A model generated the notes under the pieces. It did no database searches. It had not been told where the DNA came from and was given only the letters and a program-made list of their open reading frames with translations. Both the position numbers and the translations under genes were made by a program. Of a stretch of 41,765 bases of DNA, positions 4,701 through 10,310 are shown one piece after another. Origin of the DNA: Dehalococcoidia bacterium. GTDB taxonomy: Bacteria; Chloroflexota; Dehalococcoidia; SM23-28-2. Positions within the stretch are counted from its first letter, which is position 1. Each line of letters opens with the position of its first letter. Location of the stretch: positions 1,076,295 through 1,118,059 of the forward strand of contig CP070630.1 of NCBI GenBank assembly GCA_020356025.1. The letters are read 5' to 3'.

Positions 4701-5986
4701 CGCCTGCGCAGACGAGCCGTCAGCACAGCTATCCCCAGAAGGCTCACGCCCGCCAGGGCCCCGCCAGCGACCGCCAGACCCACCGCCGTGCCCCAGGGAA
4801 ACTCGTCCTCGCCAGCCTCTTCCGCCTCACCCGTCTGCTCCGCGGGCGTGGGCTGCACCTCCGACTCCTGCTCTGCGGCAGGCGTGGAACCTTCGCGCGG
4901 GGGCAGGCCCAGACTGGCCCGCCAGGCGTCCTCCAGGCCACCCTGGTCGAAGCCGTAGACCTTCAGGAGAGCCTTGTCGACGGTGCTTCCCTCCTTGAAG
5001 ATGGCATATAGCTCAGCGAACTTCGCCGACCCGTGGGTCTCAATCAGGAAGTCCACCAGGCTCCAGGCCTGGCCGTAGAAGAGGGTCACCTTGCTGGCAT
5101 CACCGGTGGGAGCGGTCATCGAGCGGACGGAGAGGAGGCTGTCACGCTCCACAGCCTTGTCCAGGGCCGAGGTAAAGCCCGCGCCGGGCTCCGACTGGCC
5201 GTACATGGCCGTTCCCTCGTCCAGCCAGGCAGGCAAGGAGCCGTAGGGGCCCTCACCCGCCACGTGGGTCACGATGTGGGTCAGTTCGTGGCGAAGGGTG
5301 TCATCATCCCCTTCGCCTTGCATGAGAATCGTATCCGACGACACCCGCTCGCCAGCAACGACCACCCGCTGGGCGTGGGCCTCGCTGCGCCGCACCAGGG
5401 CGGGCAGCATGTCCTGGTAGCTATCGTAAATCCAGACCTTCACCGGGTAGTCAACGGTTACGCCCAACAGCCCCGACATCTCGTCCAGCGTCTCGCGGGC
5501 TACCTCCAGGGACGATACGGCAGAAGAGGAGCTGCCAGCGTACCAGTAGACGGTCACGTTGCCATCGCTAACGCTCTCCCAGGCGAAGCGGATGTCCTCA
5601 TAGACAAAGGTAGCTGGTTCCGTGGTCAGCTTATTGCCAGCGCCGTCCTCGATCTCCCAGAAGTAGTCGATCTGAGCACCGGGCGCCAGGTAGCTGCGGG
5701 GCGGGTCGTTGGCCTTGAGATGGAAGTCCACCTGGACGCGCTCGGCGGGAGTGAGATCGGGCCGGCCGTAGGCCTTGACTCCGTCCGGCAGGATCTGATA
5801 GTGGAGGGTCGCCTCCTCGATGGTGGCCTGACTGTAGGCCGAGAGGCGGAACACCACCTCCTCGGGGAAGCTGTTCACCACATTTGTGGCCGTGACCTCT
5901 ATCGCACTCTGGGCAGAGGCGACAGGGGAGACAACCGTCCCCACGAAGAGAACGGCCAGGCCCAGGAGGACTAGAAACCTTTTCAT
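4697..5986 (-). CDS. secreted, membrane-anchored peptidase MA-like metalloprotease
   Basis: The 429-residue protein starts with a signal peptide (residues 1 to about 25, ending VASA). The central part carries the zinc-metalloprotease motif HELTH (233-237) and a downstream Glu in WLDEG (254-258), the expected third ligand in gluzincins of the peptidase MA-like group. A Pro/Glu-rich linker (about 365-395) leads to a single C-terminal membrane helix (about 400-423) and an RLRRR stop-transfer tail. So it is probably exported, with the catalytic domain outside and anchored at its C-terminus. The N-terminal 30-135 region looks like a beta-sandwich of unknown role. The start overlaps the prfB stop (ATGA). 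The substrate is unknown. Confidence 0.8.
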   Translation of the reverse strand: MKRFLVLLGLAVLFVGTVVSPVASAQSAIEVTATNVVNSFPEEVVFRLSAYSQATIEEATLHYQILPDGVKAYGRPDLTPAERVQVDFHLKANDPPRSYLAPGAQIDYFWEIEDGAGNKLTTEPATFVYEDIRFAWESVSDGNVTVYWYAGSSSSAVSSLEVARETLDEMSGLLGVTVDYPVKVWIYDSYQDMLPALVRRSEAHAQRVVVAGERVSSDTILMQGEGDDDTLRHELTHIVTHVAGEGPYGSLPAWLDEGTAMYGQSEPGAGFTSALDKAVERDSLLSVRSMTAPTGDASKVTLFYGQAWSLVDFLIETHGSAKFAELYAIFKEGSTVDKALLKVYGFDQGGLEDAWRASLGLPPREGSTPAAEQESEVQPTPAEQTGEAEEAGEDEFPWGTAVGLAVAGGALAGVSLLGIAVLTARLRRR

Positions 5987-7090
5987 CCCTCGTCCTTGCC
6001 CAGCGTGGCCTTCTGATAGGCCCGCAGAAGCTCATCGAGTTCGCCGTCCAGGACGGCCTCGGCGTCGCTGGTCTCGTAGCCCGTGCGATGGTCCTTCACC
6101 ATCTTGTAGGGATGGAGGACGTAGCTGCGGATCTGGTTGCCCCAGGCGGCGGAGACGTGCTCCCCCTTGAGACGATCCTTCTCCTCAGCCTGGCGCTCCA
6201 GCTCTCGCTCCAGCAGGCGCGCCTGGAGCACCTTCATAGCGATATCTTTGTTACGATACTGCGACCGCTCGTTCTGGCAGGAGACCACGATCCCGCTGGG
6301 GACATGGGTGATGCGGACGGCCGTGGCGTTCTTCTGGACGTGCTGGCCGCCGTGGCCACTGGCCCGGAAGACGTCGATGCGCAGGTCATCGGGGTCGATC
6401 GTCACCTCCGCCACGTCTTCGACCTCCGGCATCACCTCCACCAGAGCGAAGGAGGTGTGGCGGGCATGGGCGAAGTCAAAGGGCGAGAGACGCACCAAGC
6501 GGTGGACGCCCCGCTCGGCCCGCAGGTAGCCGAAAGCGTTGGGGCCAGCCACTTCAGCCATCGCGCTCTTGATCCCCGCTTCCTCTCCCACCGTCATGTC
6601 CAGCACACGCGCCTGGTAGCCGTGGCTCTCCGCCCAGCGGAGGTACATGCGCAGCAGCATGTCTGCCCAGTCCTGGGAGTCGGTGCCGCCAGCGCCGGCG
6701 TGGATGGCCAGGATGGCATCACGACGGTCATACGCGCCGGAGAGGGCCAGGGACAGCTCCAGCTCGTCCAGTCGAGCCGCCAGCGCCTCAGCCTCAACCG
6801 ACACGTCAGCCGCCATCGCCTCGTCTCCCTCCGCCTCCGCCAGCTCCAGCAGATCGGACAGCTCGCCCACCTTGATCTCCAGCCCGCGCCAGGTCTCCAC
6901 CTGCTCACGGGCCTCCGCCAGGCGACGCATCACCTTCTGCGCTCGCTGCGGATCGTCCCAGAAGTCGGGCCGGGAGGAACGACTCTCGAGGGTGCCTATC
7001 TCGCGTTCTTGGCTGGCGACGTCAAAGGCTCTCCGTTATGCGAAAGATGCGCTCGGAGAGCTGCTTGAGAACCTCTCTTACTTCTTGCAT
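5983..7090 (-). CDS. prfB: peptide chain release factor 2, with programmed +1 frameshift
   Basis: RF2 reads UAA and UGA stop codons and triggers peptide release. The coding sequence is in two frames: 22 codons from ATG 7090 to CTT 7025, then an in-frame TGA (7024-7022) that is bypassed by a +1 shift. Translation resumes at GAC (7023-7021) and ends at 5983. The joined product is 368 residues, the usual RF2 length (E. coli 365). After joining, the stop-codon recognition motif SPF lies at 202-204 and the catalytic GGQ at 247-249, matching RF2 and not RF1. Starting at an internal GTG or ATG near 6933 would lose the first 52 residues. It lies 30 bases after endonuclease V and overlaps the peptidase gene by four bases. 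Confidence 0.97.
7021..7034 (-). promoter_or_regulatory. prfB programmed frameshift site (internal Shine-Dalgarno, CTT TGA C)
   Basis: Reading the minus strand, GGAG (7034-7031) is followed by a three-base spacer, then the slippery CTT codon (7027-7025), the in-frame TGA (7024-7022) and C (7021). This is the canonical prfB autoregulation site: low RF2 leaves the ribosome paused at TGA and the internal Shine-Dalgarno promotes a +1 slip. The three-base spacing equals that of the E. coli site. Confidence 0.93.
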
Positions 7091-7120
7091 GGCAGCATCG
7101 ACCACCTTGCGATTCGATTG

Positions 7121-7825
7121 CTAGAACAAGGACATCTGCTCACCGGCGGGCTGCGGCGCCGCCGCTATAGTCTGGCCGCCGGCCGCCTGGTGAGCCAGAC
7201 GAGCGGGCTCCGGCAGGCGATAGCCCCGGCAGAGGCGAAGAACCCATTCCGCCGCTTCCGCCAAAGCGATGCGATGTCCCACGGAAACGTAGACCGGCGT
7301 CACTCCTGTCCGCGTGCGCACCACCAGGCCGATGATCTCCGGCCCATCGCGCAGCTCCACGCGGCTGCCCGCCTCCTCGCCCACAGGCCCGTGCTCGCCC
7401 ACCAGACGCGACTTGGCGCAGCCGACGGTCGGCAGGTCGAGCAGCAACCCCAGGTGGCAGGCGATTCCGAACCGACGCTGGTGAGCCAGCCCCTGGCCAT
7501 CCACCAAGAGCAGATCGGGTCTGAGAGACAGCCGCTGGAAGGCCTCGGCCAGCACCGGCACCTCGCGGAAGGCCAGCAGCCCCGGTACGTAGGGAAAGGT
7601 TAGCTCTGTCTCCACCACCTGGCTCTCCAGCACCCGCAGGTCGGGGTAGCTGAGCACGACCACGGCGCCGCAACCCTTGCCGCCAGCAGTGGCGATGTCC
7701 GCCCCTGCCACCGTGCGCACGTCCTGAGGCGAGCCCTCCAGGACGACCTGGGAGGCCAGCCGCTTCTGGGTGGCTATTGCGTCACGCGGCTCCAGGTTCC
7801 AGGGATGAAGCTGCTGTATTTCCAT
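7121..7825 (-). CDS. nfi: endonuclease V (deoxyinosine 3' endonuclease)
   Basis: This 234-residue repair enzyme cuts DNA one base 3' of a deaminated adenine (inosine). The catalytic metal ligands are visible: Asp43 in GADIA, Glu88 in the YVPGLLAFRE segment (79-88, which contains the PYxP wedge), and Asp109 in VDGQG, with His115 after it. The ATG at 7825 is chosen because MEIQQL is the family-like beginning; the open frame continues far upstream only because it runs antisense-like through the DUF763 gene. There is no clear Shine-Dalgarno, and a TATAAT box lies nine bases before the ATG, suggesting a leaderless start. It lies 10 bases downstream of the DUF763 gene. Confidence 0.93.
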   Translation of the reverse strand: MEIQQLHPWNLEPRDAIATQKRLASQVVLEGSPQDVRTVAGADIATAGGKGCGAVVVLSYPDLRVLESQVVETELTFPYVPGLLAFREVPVLAEAFQRLSLRPDLLLVDGQGLAHQRRFGIACHLGLLLDLPTVGCAKSRLVGEHGPVGEEAGSRVELRDGPEIIGLVVRTRTGVTPVYVSVGHRIALAEAAEWVLRLCRGYRLPEPARLAHQAAGGQTIAAAPQPAGEQMSLF

Positions 7826-7834
7826 CGCAATCCC

Positions 7835-7840
7835 ATTATA
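7835..7840 (-). promoter_or_regulatory. possible -10 box giving a leaderless endonuclease V mRNA
   Basis: The minus strand reads TATAAT at 7840-7835, overlapping the DUF763 stop codon, nine bases before the ATG at 7825. I see no good -35 at 16-18 bases upstream. Transcription would start one to three bases before the ATG, and no ribosome-binding site is present. The promoter call is tentative. Confidence 0.4.
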
Positions 7841-8912
7841 CAGCCGCCAGCCGCCGCAGCGCCTCCAGCTTCTCTCGCCGTCCCAGTTTGGCCCGCTCGA
7901 CCGCCGCCCGCAGGGCCTCGATGGAGCGGTCGTAGGTGCGGCGATCGACCGGATAGGGATGGCCGTCCTTGCCGCCGTGGGCGAAGGAGAAGCGGGCGGG
8001 ATCGCGCACGCTGGCCTTGGCTCCGTACACCAGCTCCGAGACGAGGGCCAGGGCGCGGATGGTCTTGGCGCCCACTCCCTCCATGCCCAGAAGGCGCTCG
8101 AAGTCCTGGGGCTGGCGCTCGTAGGTCTTGAGGAAGATCTTGGCCAGCTTATCGGGATGGATGTCGCTGGGCTCAAGGTGATGGCGTTCCGGCAGCTCGA
8201 GCGTTTGCAGCCGCTTCAGCTCCCCCACCAGCTTGTCGGGCCTCTCGCCCGCCAGGCGGGCGCTCAGGTCGCGGCACTCATCGCTCTCTTGGGCCACCAT
8301 GTTCAGCACGGACCCGCGGCCGTCGGAGCAGATGGCACTGTGGGGCTCGCAGACGAAGTCATCCACCCTCGACGACAGCCAGTGGTAGCGACGGGCCCAG
8401 CGGGTGGCCTCGTTCATCCCCTGCTGGATCACCGTCCAGGCACCGTCGCCGCTCCAGACGAAGGTATGATGATAGAGCTGATAGCCGTCCTGGAGAGCGG
8501 CCGAGTCCACCTTGGCCGCCATGCGCGAGGCGTAGACCAGGCCCGACGGCTCGAAGCCGTAGCGCTCGCCGAACAGCTCAAGTTCCTGCGGCGTCTTACG
8601 CGAGGTCTTGCCCTTGCCGCCGGCCACGAACAGCCCCGAGTCCTTCTCCAGCCCCCGCAGGCCCTCCTTGAGGGCGCCGCAGACGGTTGTCGTGACACCG
8701 CTGGAGTGCCAGTCGAAGCCGAGGACGCAGCCGAAAGCCTGGAACCACAGCGGGTCCGACAGCTTGGCCAGCACCTCCTGCGGCCCATACTCCTCGACGA
8801 TGACCAGGGTGATCTGGCGGGCCAGCCCAGTCATCCGCTCGAAGAGCCATCTGGGGGCCGCCCCGTAGTGCAGCGGCAGGTTCGCCACGCCGGTGCGAGC
8901 GCCGGTGGACAT
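7836..8912 (-). CDS. DUF763 family protein with helix-hairpin-helix motif
   Basis: The 358-residue protein opens with GARTGVANLPLHYGAAPRW and continues with GFDWHSSGVTTTVCGALKEGLRG, characteristic of DUF763, a family of unknown function common in archaea and some bacteria. Near the C-terminus, GMEGVGAKTIRAL (276-288) is a helix-hairpin-helix signature, as in DNA glycosylases and other non-sequence-specific DNA-binding proteins. Several conserved acidic, His and Cys residues lie between 140 and 200. The start is ATG 8912, with a GGAGG site seven bases upstream. It is ten bases from endonuclease V, so a role in DNA repair or processing is a reasonable inference, but no activity is known. Confidence 0.88.
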   Translation of the reverse strand: MSTGARTGVANLPLHYGAAPRWLFERMTGLARQITLVIVEEYGPQEVLAKLSDPLWFQAFGCVLGFDWHSSGVTTTVCGALKEGLRGLEKDSGLFVAGGKGKTSRKTPQELELFGERYGFEPSGLVYASRMAAKVDSAALQDGYQLYHHTFVWSGDGAWTVIQQGMNEATRWARRYHWLSSRVDDFVCEPHSAICSDGRGSVLNMVAQESDECRDLSARLAGERPDKLVGELKRLQTLELPERHHLEPSDIHPDKLAKIFLKTYERQPQDFERLLGMEGVGAKTIRALALVSELVYGAKASVRDPARFSFAHGGKDGHPYPVDRRTYDRSIEALRAAVERAKLGRREKLEALRRLAAV

Positions 8913-9044
8913 GCCTGATCCTCCCCAGGCAAGGGTATCAGACAGCCGATCGGAAGTGAAGCGAGAAGAGGCACGCGACGGCGTCGACTAGGAAGGCAGA
9001 CAGCTAGGCCTTAGGTCGGCTGCCCACGGCCAACTACTCCGAAC

Positions 9045-10310
9045 CTACTTGGCCAGCACTCTGGACATCAGCTTCAGGCCCGCCTCCATCACCCGCCAGG
9101 GGGCTCCAGCGTGGAACGGCTTCCCTCTCTTGAAGCGGTAGGGAAGGTAGAGGGCCAGTATCTTCTTGCCCACCCGCCAGGCCGCTGACGTGCCCACCTT
9201 GTAGCGGCCGATGTCCTCCGGTCGAACCTCGACGGGCAGCTCAGGGCGGCCGGTAAGCCTCAAGGGCACCTGGGCGAAGGTGGCCTTGTCCAGCATGTCC
9301 ATGACGCACATGCTCGTGGGATCGAAGGGCTTGGCGCCGCTCTTGCCCAGGACCTCCGTCGCTAGATGCTCAGCGGCCGTATCCGCTTGCAGGAAAGCCT
9401 CGAACGCCTGCTTAACGGGGAAGTCGGCGGTGTCGCCAACCGCGTAGACCTCGGGGTGCTCGACCACCTGCCGCGTCTCGAACACAGTTCGGAGGAAGCC
9501 ACGATCGTCTGCTGGAAGAGCCGAGTAGCGCGTCCCGGCCACGTACGGCGGGAACGAGATGAGAAAGTCATAGGCCAGGCGCTCGCCGTTCTCATAGGTG
9601 ATTTGCCCGGGCTCGACCTCGGAGACGACGTGCTCGGTGCGTCCCTCAATCCCGCGACGATCGAACTCGCCGCCGATGACCTCGTGAAGGCGCGGGCCGA
9701 AGACCTGTATGTAGCCCTTTTCGAAGGTCGTCCAGATTATGTCGACGTGCTCCCGCACCTTCTTCCTCTTCAGCCACGTTTCGAGCATCAGGACGATCTC
9801 GTAGAGCGGGCCGGAGCACTTGTTGTTGGGCGGGAGAAGGAAGATGACCCTCTTGCGCTCGCCGGGGCCGGCGCTGCTGGCAAGCTTCTCGAAGGCCTCC
9901 CGCAGCTTCAGCATGTCTTGTTCCGTCCACACGGAAAGGCCGTTTTCGACCAGGCCGGGCACCTCCGCCGGCCGCATGTCGGCACCGGTAGCGACCACCA
10001 GGAAGTCGTAGGTGAGGCCCTGTTTGTCGACGCGGACGCTCTTGGCTGTGGGGTCGATCTCCTGCACTCGACCCTGCACAAACTCGATTCCTTGCCGCTT
10101 GGTGGGCCGGCTGAGGTCGATGCGGAGCTTTTTGGGATCGAGGCCGAAGGGGATGTAGATGGTGTTGGGTTTGTAGACAAAGTGCTCCTGCTCCGAGACG
10201 AGGGTAATGTCGGCTCGATCACCTAGACGCCAGCGCAAGTAGAAAGCTGACTCAAGGCCACCGAAGCCACCGCCCAGCACCAGCAATCGAGGCTTGGCCT
10301 TCGCAGTCAT
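9045..10310 (-). CDS. NAD(P)/FAD-dependent oxidoreductase, sulfide:quinone oxidoreductase-like
   Basis: This 421-residue flavoprotein has the N-terminal FAD-binding loop GGGFGG (13-18), the ATGAD motif (107-111) and a second FAD contact VGDTADF (291-297). It keeps two cysteines where sulfide:quinone oxidoreductases carry their redox pair: Cys165 in NNKCSGPLYE and Cys335 in SMCVMD. That argues for sulfide or persulfide oxidation at the membrane rather than type II NADH dehydrogenase, though the third cysteine of many SQRs is not obvious. The basic, hydrophobic C-terminus could bind membrane. GGAGG lies nine bases before the ATG. It appears to be a single-gene transcript; the 132 bases after it (8913-9044) hold no gene or clear terminator. 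Confidence 0.8.
   Translation of the reverse strand: MTAKAKPRLLVLGGGFGGLESAFYLRWRLGDRADITLVSEQEHFVYKPNTIYIPFGLDPKKLRIDLSRPTKRQGIEFVQGRVQEIDPTAKSVRVDKQGLTYDFLVVATGADMRPAEVPGLVENGLSVWTEQDMLKLREAFEKLASSAGPGERKRVIFLLPPNNKCSGPLYEIVLMLETWLKRKKVREHVDIIWTTFEKGYIQVFGPRLHEVIGGEFDRRGIEGRTEHVVSEVEPGQITYENGERLAYDFLISFPPYVAGTRYSALPADDRGFLRTVFETRQVVEHPEVYAVGDTADFPVKQAFEAFLQADTAAEHLATEVLGKSGAKPFDPTSMCVMDMLDKATFAQVPLRLTGRPELPVEVRPEDIGRYKVGTSAAWRVGKKILALYLPYRFKRGKPFHAGAPWRVMEAGLKLMSRVLAK

Follow-up and report, generated by a model that had tools for sequence, protein, structure and literature searches.

The DUF763 protein encoded in the window (the whole stretch of 41,765 nucleotides analysed here) is tentatively read as a stand-alone two-module DNA-processing enzyme, which would act independently of its neighbour endonuclease V; we give this reading, in which the DNA chemistry is predicted, a probability of about 40%. 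It was drawn from a helix-hairpin-helix (HhH) motif, a set of invariant polar residues, a patchy spread among genomes, DNA-metabolism genes that overlap DUF763 and a lack of dependence on endonuclease V. Even between very distant organisms DUF763 is strongly conserved, and the literature searched gave no function for it; the HhH, the fixed set of invariant polar residues and the independence from endonuclease V narrow its tests to a stand-alone DNA activity and to named residues.

The protein (358 amino acids; positions 7836-8912, minus strand) matched PF05559 with an E-value of 7.5e-138 and 459.5 bits, against a curated cut-off of 35.5, over profile positions 1-319 of 319, which places it in the family. 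Pfam's own name for PF05559, DUF763, assigns no function. No model of NCBIfam, PADLOC or PHROGs matched the protein up to E=1, and no enzyme family other than PF05559 was recognised for it by Pfam or by these three collections; a defence-system identity was rejected on the missing PADLOC match. The best 80 DUF763 loci from the scan showed 55-68% identity. DUF763 was found in 4 of 151 genomes of the window's phylum, its own genome included, in 63 of 113 genomes of another class (some of the matches being partial) and on 230 plasmid records, mostly rhizobial and with Halobacteria among them; Sulfolobus acidocaldarius was the only one of 14 control genomes to carry it. No relative of DUF763 was detected in phage records, in PHROGs or, by a pattern scan, in IMG/VR, and a phage or viral origin was rejected on these negatives. 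No hit to the EcfG-type general-stress promoter pattern was obtained upstream of nine plasmid copies. In the excerpt of PMC554113 that was available, DUF763 is listed as common to archaea and plant-associated Proteobacteria; within the literature searched, DUF763 or PF05559 appeared only in that paper, whose excerpt states no function. COG1415 had no mention in the literature searched, and the locus tags from PMC554113 led to no other relevant paper among the matches listed.

The first-pass annotation had pointed to an HhH signature in the C-terminal part of DUF763, and this was upheld by both structure prediction and profile comparison. An AlphaFold2 model of the whole protein, made from 48 sequences, reached a mean pLDDT of 84 and a pTM of 0.81; alignment A1 comprised 47 of the 80 loci, leaving out L021, L028 and L078 (split frames), L076 (partial) and others that were not chosen. 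The stretch GMEGVGAKTIRAL corresponds to residues 276-288 and, by DSSP of the model, falls within an HhH of residues 271-296 (FERLLGMEGVGAKTIRALALVSELVY; positions 8025-8102, minus strand), formed by helices at 271-275 and 282-296 and a turn between them that includes G279 and G281, in blocks of pLDDT 90-94. Comparison by hhalign of the C-terminal profile with sets of 13 RuvA HhH, 12 HhH-GPD and 12 UvrC sequences (from 30 PF14520 and 30 PF00730 loci) gave probabilities of 86, 65 and 46% and scores of 42, 39 and 31, respectively, the best of 20 column shuffles scoring 16, 20 and 19; the sets were drawn from genomes of the window's own order, and the comparison frames were chosen by patterns containing the hairpin, which may help the match. 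The full-length profile gave lower probabilities (RuvA 71%, HhH-GPD 44%, UvrC 26%). Because the model has a helix-turn-helix there and the profile matches lie above all shuffles, GMEGVGAKTIRAL is more than a chance string and very probably forms a real HhH.

The N-terminal module (residues 1-237; positions 8202-8912, minus strand) is modelled as helices followed by an antiparallel sheet, and most of the invariant polar residues of the alignment fall within it. Conservation was read from 127 rows (126 of 130 loci and the window DUF763) from bacterial phyla, rhizobial plasmids and haloarchaea, some rows being one gene twice as judged by genome handles (L102 and the window; L026 and L198; L038 and L205). 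In these rows 58 residues reach 98% identity, many of them Asp, His, Lys, Arg or Gln: D67, K82, D136, Q141, H149, Q163, Q164, R174, R175, H312, K315 and D316 are identical in all 127 rows and H15, H69, D142, H177 and D304 in 126, and K134 differs in two. D67-W68-H69 belongs to a DWHSSG motif (positions 8706-8714, minus strand); H312, K315 and D316 belong to an HGGKDG loop (residues 312-317; positions 7962-7979, minus strand), in which residues 313-320 have a pLDDT below 50. Such low pLDDT in an invariant HGGKD loop would be as expected for a loop that becomes ordered on a ligand. Inserts of at least 12 amino acids were present in 8 of 10 DUF763 sequences examined, seven after residue 237 (16-46 amino acids) and one after residue 179 (17 amino acids); since 7 of 10 sequences carry them there, a linker between two modules near residue 237 is likely. 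The residue-237 inserts look unrelated among the homologues L022, L059, L069, L213, L215, L129 and L133. Strings that weakly resemble a clamp motif are QLAFNF/QLAFDF in the insert of L213 and L215 and QLALF close to the C-terminus of L044; as 4 of the 127 rows match the patterns used, they are possibly due to chance.

Structure searches with the whole model gave nothing convincing (Foldseek against PDB, best E 0.52; VIA, best Z 4.0); the N-terminal module, searched as part of that model, had no recognisable fold, and no convincing relative was obtained with the C-terminal module alone (Foldseek, VIA) or with Foldseek against BFVD. VIA rows for NusA (1u9l, Z 2.3; 5lm9, Z 2.2) and a SAM domain (1pk3, Z 2.5) overlap the HhH region and were rejected as within noise. 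The best rows of PDB sequence searches (HNF-1alpha, E 0.025) lie outside the motif, look like chance and were not accepted as relatives. Missing relatives in PDB and BFVD do not make the DUF763 fold a new one. As no structural or sequence relative with known function was found, the active site of DUF763 was read from conservation alone.

In the mechanism that we propose, the C-terminal module (about residues 245-358) would grip the DNA backbone through its one HhH, the hairpin being supported and the DNA binding predicted from it. The N-terminal module, judging by its conservation, would hold the catalytic site, for which H15, D67, H69, K82, D136, Q141, D142, H149, Q163/Q164, R174/R175 and H177 are the candidate residues, and the flexible HGGKD loop (H312, K315, D316) may close over the bound substrate, as its conservation and the confidence of the model there suggest. 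Phosphodiester or lesion processing in genome maintenance would be the most likely chemistry, carried out without dependence on endonuclease V. The broader statement that DUF763 represents a new DNA-processing enzyme family, combining an HhH module for DNA binding, a mobile HGGKD loop and a catalytic module whose fold is undescribed, distributed by horizontal transfer among bacterial phyla, rhizobial megaplasmids and archaea and as yet assigned to no repair pathway, is somewhat doubtful when taken as a whole.

No neighbour of DUF763 was recurrent: the largest homologous cluster occurred at 8 of the 80 best loci, and the commonest Pfam family in 3 of 69 near same-strand genes (out of 70, a 4.8-kb frame of L066 having been left out of the Pfam scan). 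Five of the 30 nearest same-strand genes belong to DNA metabolism or nucleotide cleaning, and with first candidate starts they overlap or touch DUF763, by 8 bp (PolX, L029), 4 bp (PolA, L032), 0 bp (RarA/MgsA, L035), 4 bp (OLD-type TOPRIM, L063) and 20 bp (MazG, L054). These 30 were taken from 32 frames at most 56 bp from the matched end of DUF763, L034 and the upstream gene of L043 being left out, and their true gaps with the first candidate start are about -20 to +49 bp in nearly all cases. Unrelated genes (AadA-type, UPF0047, YdjM, DUF58, aminopeptidase) overlap DUF763 as closely. The background of 40 genes, on either strand of the same contigs and more than 1.5 kb away, which may itself be enriched, contained three DNA-metabolism genes (two HhH-GPD and one DNA polymerase III alpha), with ResIII, Cas10, a weak DprA-like match and DNA methylase hits not counted. 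Enrichment near DUF763 was not significant (5/30 vs 3/40, p=0.27), at scan thresholds of E 1e-3 for the nearest genes and 1e-5 for the background. The role in DNA repair or DNA processing that had been suggested for DUF763 is thus retained in part: a nucleic-acid role is favoured by the HhH profile match, the model and these scattered neighbours without significant enrichment, and a general tie to endonuclease V or inosine falls away, with 0 of 80 and 0 of 30 loci, as described below.

Single loci show further gene arrangements. At L029:5001-8547, from an Actinobacteria MAG, PolX overlaps DUF763 by 8 bp and is followed after 48 bp by an HhH-GPD glycosylase, all on one strand, a row that is possibly a base-excision repair operon. 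At L131:7384-9254, which lies on a conjugative plasmid of Rhodopseudomonas, the AlkB gene and the start of DUF763 share 1 bp, and in S. meliloti pSymB a UdgX-family gene is located about 2.8 kb downstream of DUF763. An EEP-family gene is present near DUF763 in three plasmid regions of Rhizobium, two of which also have a phospholipase D gene directly beside DUF763.

Against a DNA enzyme stand the absence of a recurrent neighbour, of a significant enrichment in DNA genes and of a relative with known function. HhH motifs also occur in RNA-acting proteins, and DUF763 might process or modify RNA, its HhH holding structured RNA; RsmF, an rRNA methyltransferase, is encoded directly downstream of DUF763 in L039 and L046. 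However, both loci are labelled WOR-3, so that they are hardly independent, and the other close neighbours PolX, PolA, RarA and AlkB deal with DNA; we consider an RNA substrate unlikely. A non-catalytic DNA- or protein-binding factor would fit with the fact that Pfam, NCBIfam, PADLOC and PHROGs recognised no other enzyme family, but the invariant His, Asp, Lys, Arg and Gln set would exceed the usual needs of binding alone, and this alternative appears quite unlikely to us.

DUF763 lies beside endonuclease V (nfi), whose gene encodes 234 amino acids (positions 7121-7825, minus strand) and matches PF04493 (E=5.8e-72) and, above cut-off, NCBIfam NF008629, deoxyribonuclease V. DUF763 had been described as lying ten bases upstream of it on the same strand, which is correct: both genes are full length on the minus strand, and by the sequence 10 bp (7826-7835, minus strand) separate the stop codon of DUF763 from the ATG of endonuclease V. 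On its other side is the gene at 5983-7090 (minus strand), the steady neighbour of endonuclease V in the window's order, which by its sequence we take to be prfB, encoding RF2. It has an in-frame TGA with a +1 continuation: an ATG-started frame of 22 codons stops at TGA and resumes in +1 as DVASQEREIGTLES. CTT-TGA-C at 7021-7027 (minus strand) is the programmed frameshift site known from RF2 genes, an ordinary feature of prfB.

Endonuclease V of the window ends in QMSLF (positions 7124-7138, minus strand), which to our eyes resembles a beta-sliding-clamp binding motif. Two others of the same family end in EQMSLF and EQMTLF; in another family the C-terminus reads EQLSLL, and in others QQPRLF, QQPRLL, QPRLL or EQQRFI. 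In family f61, where no DUF763 was found, six of seven endonucleases V have no clamp-like tail and one ends in EQMSPL. At L093:7145-7850 (genome G172, of the same genus) the endonuclease V gene beside DUF763 is split into two frames by a frameshift or an assembly error, and its C-terminus was not part of this comparison. A literature search with endonuclease V and clamp terms gave nothing on a clamp-like tail among the matches listed.

In 25 genomes of the window's order, DUF763 was present in 8 and endonuclease V in 17. A functional partnership of the two, expressed from a single transcript and confined to this order, is very unlikely in our judgement, although several observations favour it. 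The genes adjoin in seven of the eight DUF763 genomes, all seven pairs are co-directional, and a candidate start of endonuclease V lies 4-10 bp past DUF763 in six of them, the distance in the seventh being 89 bp; positions 6900-9100 of the window, which include the junction of both genes, showed no match to a promoter- or terminator-like consensus. The DUF763-endonuclease V junction survived a change of upstream genes: folD and thyX are located upstream in four of the seven paired loci (L094, L096, L098 and L102), unlike L093, L095 and L097, in whose upstream 6 kb they were not found. Endonuclease V was present in 8 of 8 DUF763 genomes of the order vs 9 of the 17 others (p=0.026), though these genomes are related and partly incomplete. 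Against a functional pair, the two genes are apart in the eighth genome (G174, a draft), where the 1.3 kb upstream of endonuclease V contain no DUF763; the 3' end of DUF763 is located on a different contig, and no endonuclease V occurs in the 1.4 kb that follow it. In addition, endonuclease V still adjoins prfB in six genomes of the order without DUF763, so that endonuclease V-prfB is the fixed and steadier pair. Downstream of endonuclease V in the seven paired genomes are prfB in all seven, a peptidase gene in six and a glutaredoxin-like gene in five, the seventh locus reaching its contig edge before the position of the peptidase gene; in G174, endonuclease V and prfB are 1.9 kb apart. In a DUF763 tree, each of the two pair-carrying families of the order forms a clade with support 1.0. 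The two clades are first united in a group of 13 tips (support 0.77), to which loci labelled as other phyla also belong, so that a single acquisition is not distinguished from two.

Outside the order, endonuclease V was detected in the fetched flanks of none of the 80 best DUF763 loci, which are from other genomes of many phyla (the upstream flank reached 1 kb or more in 71 and the downstream flank in 69; in 44, both flanks measured 3 kb or more). It did not adjoin DUF763 at three loci of the same phylum (L099-L101), nor was it found at 30 loci of another class (flanks up to 1.5 kb), two of which repeat loci of the 80. A genome-wide count, which covered 40 of the 80 loci, gave an endonuclease V match somewhere in 23 of the 40 genomes and none in 17. 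In the other class, endonuclease V was present in 10 of 63 DUF763 genomes, two of the ten matches being weak and partial, and absent from 53, vs 6 of 50 genomes without DUF763 that had it (Fisher p=0.60). The DUF763-nfi neighbourhood, whose conservation across genomes the first-pass annotation had proposed to check, is thus not conserved (0 of 80 and 0 of 30 loci outside the order). The link with endonuclease V and inosine that it had envisaged was not sustained either, as there is no general adjacency, no association in another class and, as detailed below, a Lys/Asp pair that varies. Endonuclease V was consequently rejected as a general partner of DUF763 on missing adjacency and co-occurrence outside the order; the pairing is a local arrangement that this one bacterial order has kept, with co-transcription at most.

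In HhH-GPD proteins the hairpin is followed by a Gly/Pro-rich loop and then by a helix that opens with a catalytic Asp; bifunctional, lyase-type members also have a catalytic Lys. A reading of DUF763 as a divergent glycosylase/lyase of the HhH-GPD kind that acts on deaminated bases together with endonuclease V, with K283 in GVGxKT as nucleophile and D323 after the Gly/Pro-rich loop as catalytic Asp, is suggested by the similar order of these elements and by the adjacency in seven of eight DUF763 genomes of the order, but is highly improbable. Lys occupies position 283 in only 94 of the 127 rows (otherwise Arg in 17, Ala in 11, Gly in 3 and Gln in 2) and Asp position 323 in 99; the seven alphaproteobacterial plasmid proteins read have Arg and Pro at these positions, whereas in both haloarchaeal proteins read the first is Gly and the second Lys or Glu. 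The hhalign similarity covers 39 columns and ends at the hairpin, and the adjacency was not found at the 80 best loci or the 30 of another class. PF00730 did not match DUF763 up to E=1. An HhH-GPD identity was rejected on the variable Lys/Asp pair, and because this lyase-type pair is not conserved an inosine glycosylase is likewise unlikely.

Compared with known systems, DUF763 has only a neighbour in endonuclease V (PF04493), which adjoins it in the order, belongs to a different Pfam family and has no general linkage to it. HhH-GPD DNA glycosylases (PF00730) share with DUF763 the hairpin, the Gly/Pro-rich loop and an Asp starting a helix, but the similarity stops at the hairpin, the Lys and Asp vary, and the N-terminal module showed no relation to them. 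RuvA, UvrC and other HHH_5 domains (PF14520) are alike at the hairpin, RuvA being the best match (86%), and differ in that only one HhH is seen in DUF763, with no other similarity found. To the DUF763 family itself (PF05559), from which no difference was seen, the window protein is alike over its full length, invariant motifs included.
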